From NCBI GenBank assembly GCA_018064405.1, contig JAGHVG010000003.1:1-49151 (forward strand): 49,151 bases of DNA. The letters run 5' to 3'. A model generated the notes under the pieces. The model saw nothing but the letters and a program-made list of their open reading frames with translations, was not told where the DNA came from and ran no database searches. Within the stretch, counting starts at the first letter, position 1. Every line of letters starts with the position of its first letter. This document shows, in pieces, positions 10,951-12,763 of the stretch. The DNA is from Candidatus Enterousia scatequi (GTDB lineage Bacteria; Pseudomonadota; Alphaproteobacteria; Rs-D84). The translations under genes were made by a program, and so were the position numbers.

Positions 10951-11838
10951 TCAATTGCCAAAGGACGAAAACACGGCAGAACGAAAAGACGAAACAGCCT
11001 GAACGCGGTTACCGCAGCCATCCGCACAAGAGCCAGCGCAATTGGAAGACGACGCGTGCCCGTGGTCGAGCACCCAACGCGACACAGCCGGACTTTGCAT
11101 ATTACACCAACAATATATACAATCTGCACCATCTGCATCCTTGCCCGATAATCCCTTGGACGCATCTATAAATGTATTACTATATTCGCCCGTCCCATAT
11201 GGGGAATATCCACTCGTTCTGCCTAAACCTTCGGCTTCGGATAAACATGTTGCCTCACCCGTGACCACACCCCATGAAAATGTTGCACCCCATGTCCCGT
11301 TTTCTGTTAAGCCATAGGTACTTGGAACTACTTTTGGACCGCTGTTTGTACTTTCGCTTCCAGTTGGATTTATATAACCGTATACACTACCATTCGTGGA
11401 ACTGTTTATACAACTTTCCATTCCAAAATCATATTGACCCGATGGACAGGTCAGGGAATATTTTTGAAACTCTAACCTGAAACCACCCGTGGTTCCATCC
11501 CATACCACATCATATTTACCATTCGTTGGTGCATGGGGTAATGTATCCTGTTTGTTGTTTAATGCCGTCGTCAGGGCATTTTGCGTCATACCGCCATCAA
11601 CACCCGTCCCGGTGTTATTGTATAACTTTATTATCCCAGGTTTCGTACTGGTCCCTGTTTCATACGGTGTTGTGTTGGTCGTGCTTATTACATCATCTAT
11701 GATTATTACCCCAGAACCCGCGGTTAATAATCCCTGTTTCCCATTTGCACCATTATCAACATAGTCCGTTGACGCAATATCACCATACGCAGCACCACAT
11801 ACTGTCATTATTGTAGTAATTATACATGTCTTTTTCAT
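10951..11838 (-). CDS. Secreted repeat protein with Cys-rich C-terminus
   Basis: The 295-aa protein has a signal peptide (MKKTCIITTIMTVCGAAYG-D). It continues with DIASTDYVD and a tail-fibre-like KQGLLTAGSGVIII. Then comes one copy of the module seen in its neighbour (YETGT..GI.KLYNNTGT..DG..TQNALTTALNNKQDTLP). From about residue 125 it differs: glycine/serine-rich, with cysteines in pairs (TCPSGQYDFGMESC, CIYCWCNMQSPAVSRWVLDHGHASSSNCAGSCADGC). These suggest a disulfide-bonded extracellular domain. Family and function are unknown; a surface or adhesive role is inferred from secretion and the phage-fibre-like modules. GGGGGGAA stands six bases before the ATG and overlaps the stop of the upstream gene, so the two are coupled. 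Confidence 0.75.
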   Translation of the reverse strand: MKKTCIITTIMTVCGAAYGDIASTDYVDNGANGKQGLLTAGSGVIIIDDVISTTNTTPYETGTSTKPGIIKLYNNTGTGVDGGMTQNALTTALNNKQDTLPHAPTNGKYDVVWDGTTGGFRLEFQKYSLTCPSGQYDFGMESCINSSTNGSVYGYINPTGSESTNSGPKVVPSTYGLTENGTWGATFSWGVVTGEATCLSEAEGLGRTSGYSPYGTGEYSNTFIDASKGLSGKDADGADCIYCWCNMQSPAVSRWVLDHGHASSSNCAGSCADGCGNRVQAVSSFRSAVFSSFGN

Positions 11839-11841
11839 ATT

Positions 11842-12444
11842 TTATTCCCCCCGTTTTTCAAATATAAATTGTTGATTTTTGCCATCCCATACCAATGTGT
11901 ATTGGTCATCATCGTTTGGTCCCGTCGGTAACGCATCTTGCTTTGTCCCCAATGCCGTCGTTATTGCATTTTGGGTTATCGTGCCATCTGTATTTGTGCC
12001 GGTATTGTTATACAGCTTTGTTATTCCAGATGTATCCACATTACCAGTGCCGTATGTTATATATTTTGCGTATACAAATTGACCACTGGTACCGTCCCAC
12101 GTTAAACCATATTTTTCACCGTCGTTTGGTCCCGTCGGTAACGCATCTTGCTTTGTCCCCAATGCCGTCGTTATTGCATTTTGGGTTATCGTGCCATCTG
12201 TATTTGTGCCGGTCGTATCGTATAATTTTGTTACCCCAGATGTGTCCGCAGTGCCCGTTTCATATTCCGCAACCGCAACATCCGCACTGATGGTGCCATC
12301 AGGTGCAATCGTTATGCCATCGCCCGCGGTTAATTTATTCTGTTTGGTTGATAAAACATCATCCACATATGTCGTTGATGCAATATCACCGTATGATATA
12401 TTACATATTGTTATTAAACCTAATATTATAAATATTCGTATCAT
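11842..12444 (-). CDS. Secreted protein with tandem tail-fibre-like modules
   Basis: The 200-aa protein has a signal peptide (MIRIFIILGLITICNISYG-D). Next comes STKQNKLTAGDGITIAPDGTISA, a stretch typical of phage tail-fibre and collar-like beta structures. Two tandem ~70-aa modules follow: TSG(V/I)TKLY(D/N)(T/N)TGTNTDGTITQNAITTALGTKQDALPTGPND. The modules share a 92-bp identical DNA segment. The track start is GTG 12456; ATG 12444 is preferred because it begins the signal peptide cleanly and has GGAG/AAGG upstream. It is paralogous to the next gene and coupled to it. The likely fate is export, perhaps surface display. The function is unknown. Confidence 0.75.
   Translation of the reverse strand: MIRIFIILGLITICNISYGDIASTTYVDDVLSTKQNKLTAGDGITIAPDGTISADVAVAEYETGTADTSGVTKLYDTTGTNTDGTITQNAITTALGTKQDALPTGPNDGEKYGLTWDGTSGQFVYAKYITYGTGNVDTSGITKLYNNTGTNTDGTITQNAITTALGTKQDALPTGPNDDDQYTLVWDGKNQQFIFEKRGE
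11912..12003. repeat. 92-bp perfect direct repeat, unit A
   Basis: Identical to 12122-12213. The offset is 210 bp, exactly 70 codons, so recombination between copies adds or removes one protein module in frame. Confidence 0.95.
12122..12213. repeat. 92-bp perfect direct repeat, unit B
   Basis: Second identical copy, within the same gene as unit A. Identity extends through third codon positions, which implies recent duplication or ongoing conversion. Confidence 0.95.
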
Positions 12445-12465
12445 TTCCTTTCGCACTCCCCCGAT

Positions 12466-12609
12466 TTAATCTTGGTGGTGGCGTATCAATGCGCTAAATA
12501 CACCACCAAAAAAACCACCGAATTTGCTTGGTGGTTCAGGAGGTTCATAACAATCATCTGAATTGTGTGCCTTATTCAATATATTCGGCAACCCTCCTGA
12601 ACCAAACAT
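12466..12609 (-). CDS. Possible 47-aa leader peptide or small protein
   Basis: This open frame is too short for the ORF track. It reads MFGSGGLPNILNKAHNSDDCYEPPEPPSKFGGFFGGVFSALIRHHQD and ends 21 bases before the ATG of the repeat protein. The Pro-rich then Gly/Phe-rich layout looks protein-like. However, no good ribosome binding site precedes its ATG, and it runs across a hairpin plus seven T that also reads as a terminator. It may be a real small gene, a leader peptide or chance. Confidence 0.3.
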   Translation of the reverse strand: MFGSGGLPNILNKAHNSDDCYEPPEPPSKFGGFFGGVFSALIRHHQD

Positions 12610-12615
12610 CAGGAG
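12508..12615 (-). promoter_or_regulatory. Putative transcription attenuator ahead of the repeat-protein operon
   Basis: In minus-strand order there are three segments. Segment 1 is CTCCTGA (12615-12609). Segment 2 is GGTTCAGGAGG (12603-12593). Segment 3 is CCTCCTGAACC (12543-12533). Segment 2 can pair with either 1 or 3. Segment 3 overlaps the left arm of a terminator, AACCACC/GGTGGTT followed by seven T (12536-12508). Pairing 2:3 should block the terminator, while pairing 1:2 should free it. Confidence 0.5.
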
Positions 12616-12624
12616 ATTTATCGT

Positions 12625-12646
12625 CAGATATTAAAAAAAGACGCAA
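12625..12646 (-). terminator. Possible weak terminator downstream of priA
   Basis: On the minus strand, GGGCGC ATT GCGTCT (with two G-T pairs) is followed by a run of T. It could end the priA transcript or a short RNA starting near 12717. Confidence 0.35.
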
Positions 12647-12649
12647 TGC

Positions 12650-12763
12650 GCCCGTTCTTATACCGTTTCTGACGCAGATGACCGGGTTATGACACCCCAC
12701 CACGATAATTCATCGTGGCAAGAATATTTTACAATATCGTACCAATATAAGTAAAGAAAATTT
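12650..12763 (-). other. Structured non-coding stretch after priA
   Basis: There is no gene here. On the minus strand, TTTACT, 18 bp and TAAAAT (near 12725-12755) could be a promoter. Just after it is the perfect hairpin CCACGAT GAATT ATCGTGG. Then comes a GGGT/ACCC hairpin. CGTCAGA can pair with TCTGACG beyond the poly-T. The stretch may be a leader of the repeat-protein operon. I recognise no known riboswitch or RNA family. Confidence 0.35.

Follow-up and report, generated by a model that had tools for sequence, protein, structure and literature searches.

The window, by which we mean the whole analysed stretch of 49,151 nt from Candidatus Enterousia scatequi, comes from a genus which we take to belong to the gut Alphaproteobacteria and whose genomes measure about 1 Mb. 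On its minus strand lie, in this order, a -10-like box, a spacer of 6 nt, a structured RNA of 211 nt that ends in an intrinsic terminator, and a repeat-protein gene. This gene (11842-12444, minus strand), the presumed target of the RNA, encodes a protein with a signal peptide; its ATG is at 12444 with AAAGGA before it, and a GTG at 12456 is an alternative start. Positions 10951-12444 hold two adjoining genes for signal-peptide repeat proteins with a common N-terminal DIAST-YVD motif, and N-termini related to these proteins also recur behind other leader copies in the genome. Between the terminator and the ribosome site stands an extra hairpin, GGTGGTGTATTTAGCGCATTGATACGCCACCACC (12474-12507, minus strand), which among the copies that we read occurs in the window's genome only; we infer that its right arm could possibly pair with the right arm of the terminator as well. 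When further loci of the window's genome were inspected (L004, L005 and L007), some were found to share only this 3' hairpin and the gene start (12507-12444) while the RNA was absent, a sign of leader recombination.

The leader RNA (12509-12719, minus strand, as are all following features) is matched over its full length by our covariance model R1 (174.1 bits, E 8e-54), which was built from 35 copies and has the window copy itself in its training set. Six nucleotides downstream of the -10-like box TAAAAT (12726-12731) the RNA begins with P1, a 5' hairpin with the arms GCCACGA/TCGTGGT (12699-12719), for which we observed double changes in 7/7 pairs and 97.4% of cells paired. It is followed by P2, a small hairpin GGGG...CCC (12684-12698) with limited covariation in alignment A5, whose loop carries the strand P3a, TCATAAC (12686-12692), by the strand PKa, CATCTG (12675-12680), and by P4, a stem CGTCAGA/TCTGACG with a variable apical hairpin (12622-12674, 94% of cells paired). 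Then come segment 1, CTCCTGA (12615-12609), which is the 5' arm of P5, and segment 2, GGTTCAGGAGG (12603-12593). The 3' half consists of P6, a short stem with the conserved A-rich loop GAATATATTGAATAA (12567-12592, 91.8% of cells paired), the P7 hairpin ACAAT/ATTGT (12550-12566, 99.3% of cells paired) with the strand PKb, CAGATG, in its loop (12560-12555), P3b, GTTATGA (12545-12551), segment 3, CCTCCTGAACC (12543-12533), and the terminator ACCACC...GGTGGT with its T run (12509-12535, helix 89.9% paired). Segment 3 overlaps the left arm of the terminator (12535-12530), and the closing arm (12519-12514) is followed by the T run. The original prediction had placed the three segments on the minus strand exactly here and had seen that segment 2 can pair with either neighbour, which held. 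It had described a CCACGAT/ATCGTGG hairpin as a further structured stretch; this hairpin is real but not separate, as it is P1, with which a single RNA of about 210 nt begins. It had missed P2, the long-range pairings P3 and PK, P4, P6, P7, the -10-like box and the existence of other copies.

The leader stretch folds at -104.7 kcal/mol (z -5.95), a value that none of 100 shuffles equalled. Across the 114 distinct copies in alignment A5, 93.6% of the cells of the main fold, P3b included in the counts, are paired, compared to 70.2% with shuffled partners, and 45 of 46 main-fold pairs show changes on both sides. For the same copies the covariation score is 0.615, against 0.193 for shuffled partners and at most 0.063 for partners slid along the sequence. 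It has to be considered that A5 was fitted to most of the structure under test, which biases it in favour of that structure; PK and the pairing of segments 2 and 3 are not in the model. Sequence comparison supports each of P1, the long-range P3, P4, P5 (segment 1 with segment 2), P6, P7 and the terminator.

P3 and PK together form a long-range interaction with nearly perfect covariation, whose strands lie in the hairpin loops of P2 and P7. P3 was paired in 37/37 first copies, and 99.7% of its cells are paired with double changes in all six counted pairs; PK, which joins the strand 3' of P3a to the P7 loop, has 81-86% of its cells paired and double changes at all six of its pairs. Our broader model R2, a shorter model without P4 that was made from rows with the insert columns omitted, does not contain PK, so its hits test this pairing afresh: 30 of 35 class-level R2 hits have a PK of 6 nt or more without mismatch, compared to 3% with mismatched partners. 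P3 is nested with PK, whereas neither is nested with P2 or P7. This leaves two possibilities that we cannot distinguish, namely loop pairing with P2 and P7 intact, or melting of these two hairpins. We also noticed that the 23 analysed copies of one genome (G120, L101-L125) have 23 different PK strands and only 14 different P3a strands, and such diversity of PK could perhaps stop paralogous RNAs from pairing with each other.

The central claim of the original prediction was that the three segments follow the logic of a transcription attenuator, and the test it had set, covariation in the three segments of homologous leaders, was run. All three covary. In P5, 97.8% of the cells of segment 1 are paired with segment 2, while in the alternative helix of segments 2 and 3 the value is 94.1% compared to 79.5% for shuffled partners, with double changes in 10/10 pairs. 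One column of segment 2 pairs with segment 1 as UA in 60, AU in 37 and CG in 8 copies, and the same column pairs with segment 3 as AU in 59, UA in 38 and GC in 7 copies; since this one column covaries with both partners, all three segments change together. Two mutually exclusive conserved pairings, of which one includes the terminator and the other frees it, are what we required of a riboswitch-like element, and they are present. The attenuator logic is supported by this covariation, while premature termination in vivo remains inferred.

Conservation of the 47-aa reading frame had been named as grounds for refuting that claim; the corresponding rival is a leader peptide with ribosome-mediated attenuation. 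An open frame of 47 codons does exist (12609-12466); however, the position of its ATG is an ATG in only 3/117 copies, and the lengths of the stems vary regardless of the frame. As no conserved short frame overlaps the segments, we rejected this reading, which is all but excluded. A second possibility is that the element is a mobile repeat (a miniature element) that is structured by chance, which would agree with the many copies per genome and with signs of intragenomic copying of leaders. Against it stand the compensatory changes between copies at nearly every pair and the single place and orientation in front of genes, and no terminal repeats were seen, although target duplications were not systematically searched. 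We therefore consider a mobile repeat very unlikely.

Using BLASTN with the leader we found further copies, both elsewhere in the window's genome and in the majority of its relatives. Model R1 finds the leader in 134/141 genomes of the genus. Counts in four well-assembled genomes are 32, 59, 27 and 61 copies, while the fragmentary genome of the window gave 8 matches, of which one is weak. In the same order, the leader is present in 26 of the 27 genomes sampled from other genera of the same taxonomic family and in 7 of the 18 sampled from other families. Among 385 genomes sampled in the class, R1 detects the leader in eleven more distant Alphaproteobacteria, and R2 in 30 genomes outside the genus. 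The copies occur in two forms, class I (CTCCTGACC) of about 210 nt and class II (CTCCAACC) of about 170 nt, the latter sometimes in tandem. Such tandem class II copies (L032 and L127-L134, up to three in L032) each have their own -10-like box and terminator, with no gene between them.

The position of the copies relative to genes is very regular. In 130 of 138 copies a reading frame begins near the terminator, with a median of 28 nt from the T run to the start; the start codon of these 130 frames is ATG in 119 cases and a ribosome site is usual. A T run of at least 4 closes the 3' end of 133/138 copies, and 80/138 have a match of at least 5/6 to TATAAT 4-9 nt upstream of P1, 70 of these at 6-7 nt. 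By a simple heuristic measure, the N-terminus is hydrophobic in 92 of the 106 downstream proteins. Pfam names few of the downstream proteins (helix-turn-helix in 7/84, a few outer-membrane proteins and repeats), and by reading the sequences we also found prepilin-like proteins, lipoproteins and XRE regulators behind the copies of distant genomes.

These data bear on the possibility that the RNA is a free-standing, trans-acting sRNA with its own promoter-like box and terminator, for which read-through into the gene would be incidental. In its favour, both ends of the RNA, which is about 170-220 nt long, are defined, tandem copies occur without an intervening gene (L032), and trans action has been proposed for sRNA-Xcc1 (PMC12444791, citing Chen 2011) and for Brt1 (PMC5387305). 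However, the fixed distance to a start codon that is nearly always ATG, and the selection on a pairing of segments 2 and 3 that competes with the terminator, speak against it. We regard a purely trans-acting RNA as unlikely, while a dual role in cis and in trans is not excluded.

A further alternative is control of translation, in which segment 3 (CCTCC) would mask the Shine-Dalgarno sequence unless it is held by segment 2. This would agree with the observation that CAGG, which is complementary to segment 3, occurs in the ribosome site of 37/61 class I copies but of only 1/29 class II copies, and with three distant loci (L300, L301 and L303) that lack a T run and have a complementary GGAGG before the start. 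On the other hand, a T run ends nearly every copy, 24 of the 61 class I copies, the window copy included, lack CAGG, and the CAGG association was not corrected for shared descent, so that common descent may explain it. As a general account translational control therefore appears unlikely, though for some relatives without a T run, where segment 3 faces the Shine-Dalgarno sequence, we infer that the same switch may act on translation. In two other loci (L282 and L284, from genomes G272 and G482) P3b reads TTTCTGA and is complementary to TCAGAAA just upstream of the start codon, possibly another translational form.

From these observations we consider it likely that the leader is a cis-regulatory, conditional transcription attenuator whose default state is off. 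Sequence comparison shows the fold with its two alternative pairings, the -10-like box and the terminator, and a constant location of the leader upstream of start codons. The default state, the read-through, the switching and the nature of the signal as a ligand or a protein are inferred; no RNA data from the genus were available, and the identity of the signal is unknown. Transcription would start at the first base of P1 or close to it, and P1, P2, P4 and P5 would fold first. After synthesis of P7 and P3b, P3 and PK would close the domain around P5, segment 3 would be left free, the terminator would form and the downstream gene would stay off. A signal that unsettles the domain or favours the other fold would let segment 2 pair with segment 3 instead, which would take 2-3 bases of the left arm of the terminator and allow transcription into the gene.

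Several points do not sit easily with this model. The helix of segments 2 and 3 overlaps the terminator arm by only those 2-3 bases, the first copy of a tandem class II array has no gene directly behind it, and there is no candidate for a ligand. Moreover, constrained pseudoknot-free folds of the window copy give -65.9 kcal/mol for the state with P3, P5 and the terminator, and -69.5 kcal/mol for the state with segments 2 and 3 paired, thus slightly favouring the alternative state. We infer that these energies are close enough for a switch and that P3 and PK, along with the order in which the strands are made, would tip the balance to the P3/P5/terminator state; because the default-off state rests on P3, PK and folding order against the computed energies, it is itself only an inference.

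We then asked how far the element is known. The original prediction had called it possibly new and could assign no riboswitch class. The latter held, as no Rfam family, and hence no riboswitch, was matched at cut-off by the window copy; low-score hits to Lysine, isrK and psRNA14 were disregarded. Terminator-type riboswitches such as that for c-di-GMP likewise have a compact domain, loop-mediated pairings and a three-segment expression platform, and those of the c-di-GMP type likewise occur in many copies before genes for surface proteins; the leader differs from them in having no Rfam riboswitch match at cut-off and no known ligand. Since no GGDEF gene was found in 59 genomes of the genus (the control was positive in 8/14), c-di-GMP is unlikely as the signal. 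The claim of novelty holds only in part, as a relative matches the Rfam family RF02221 (sRNA-Xcc1) over its 3' half and the Brt RNAs of Bartonella look alike.

The 87-nt consensus of RF02221 comprises segment 2, P6 with a AAUACAAUA...GAAUAA loop, which the P6 loop motif of the window copy resembles, P7, P3b and segment 3, and is drawn in the fold that pairs segments 2 and 3. The order of segment 2, P6 with an AAUA/AAUAA loop, P7, P3b and segment 3, which we took as the mark of RF02221, is met by our family. RF02221 does not match the window copy, neither at the gathering cut-off nor up to E 10. The class-level copy L276, however, matches it above cut-off with 56.2 bits, and two R1-found Enterousia copies (G115) reach 39.7 bits (E 6e-6) and 35.2 bits (E 7e-5), below the cut-off of 53. 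In the other direction model R2 barely scores RF02221 loci, and BLASTN of L276 against plasmids gave no match. RF02221 was found in 54 of 329 sampled Pseudomonadota genomes, in 36 of them over cut-off. At its loci, partner strands for P3 and PK, which are not in the Rfam model, lie upstream in the same order: in 30 loci the mean match was 8.07 for the upstream complement of P3b, compared to 4.83 for mismatched partners, and 6.83 compared to 5.37 for the complement of the P7 loop. A flexible search also recovered P2 arms of 4-5 bp around P3a in 22/22 RF02221 loci tested.

Second copies of P3a and PKa lie downstream near the ribosome site of RF02221 loci, with matches of 5.80 versus 4.49 (sd 0.14) and 6.53 versus 4.90 (sd 0.16), respectively; in Enterousia copies such downstream strands were sought and were absent. 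Within L304-L333, for instance in L308, L319, L320 and L331, P3a and PKa are repeated beside the Shine-Dalgarno sequence, an example being CCGAAAAGGAGCAAACAGCCATG in L320, and many of these loci have a hairpin with a T run between PKa and segment 2. It is possible that P3b and the P7 loop choose there between the 5' partner and a 3' partner that buries the ribosome site. The published description of sRNA-Xcc1 is that of an 88-nt sRNA whose ends were mapped (PMC2996969), without placing it in a longer leader, and it sits upstream of symE in Xanthomonas integron cassettes (PMC12444791). We think it likely that it belongs to a longer leader which can also switch at the level of translation; this is inferred, and its action in trans is a proposal.

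The Brt RNAs of Bartonella (Brt1-9) are 194-203 nt long, occur in up to 34 copies and lie 10-18 nt upstream of XRE genes; by RNA-seq they are abundant while the next XRE genes are nearly silent, and their authors found no similar sequence outside Bartonella by BLAST (all PMC5387305). According to a review, deletion of the 3' stem-loop of brt1 raises transcription of trp1, the next gene, and low heme elicits a response from a reporter placed behind brt1 (PMC8070961); as reported, the deletion data would fit, by analogy, the attenuator model. We examined five leaders from Bartonella plasmids, one of them on B. grahamii pBGR3, where one plasmid Brt has been counted (PMC5387305). All five stand before XRE genes and show the order P1, P3a, PKa, P5, P6, P7 with PKb, P3b and segment 3, and P3 and PK change in step among them. 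A first, loose descriptor was dropped since 5% of shuffles passed it. A strict one (P1, P3, PK in the P7 loop, P5, and segments 2 and 3 paired) fits 5/5 of these leaders, which are however related to each other; it was also passed by 68 of 67,550 shuffles and, within pBGR3, by 3 of 931 other stretches. Neither R1 nor R2, the latter also with its filters off, matched the Bartonella leaders, which differ in the loop of P6 and lack a clear T run.

The downstream genes differ as well: Brt RNAs precede XRE genes, whereas most Enterousia copies precede genes for secreted proteins. Thus the window copy, standing before a repeat-protein gene, does not meet the requirement that a Brt RNA precede an XRE gene, but some other copies do. 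In one genome (G488) about a dozen copies were found with our models, of which nine lie directly upstream of XRE genes of one family; a protein of this family is 43% identical to the XRE protein of pBGR3, and the Enterousia XRE protein behind L117 is 40% identical. We read G488 as a bridge between the Brt RNAs and the present family. We hold that both groups work alike, although no covariance model links them; their common descent is likely but not proven.

Taken together, our findings support the attenuator of the original prediction and place it in a large and only partly described family, whose effect on transcription, default state and signal are inferred. Whether the Enterousia leaders, the Brt RNAs and sRNA-Xcc1 form one superfamily of the Pseudomonadota, with a long-range helix displayed in loops, a three-segment switch and an undiscovered signal, which in the gut lineage would have become a main controller of secreted proteins with up to about 60 copies per 1-Mb genome, is a proposal that could as readily prove wrong as right. 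A full and testable fold is now given for an RNA that was previously known in pieces, namely a 3' half as supposed trans-acting sRNA in Xanthomonas and transcripts confined to Bartonella that are tied to the control of adhesins and biofilm, and we suggest that sRNA-Xcc1 and the Brt RNAs are both leaders belonging to a single switch. In host-associated Alphaproteobacteria with reduced genomes, dozens of secreted and surface proteins appear to be under the control of one RNA, a density that is unusual among the leader RNAs known to us. Once the identity of its signal is known, regulation in these uncultured gut bacteria would become accessible to experiments.
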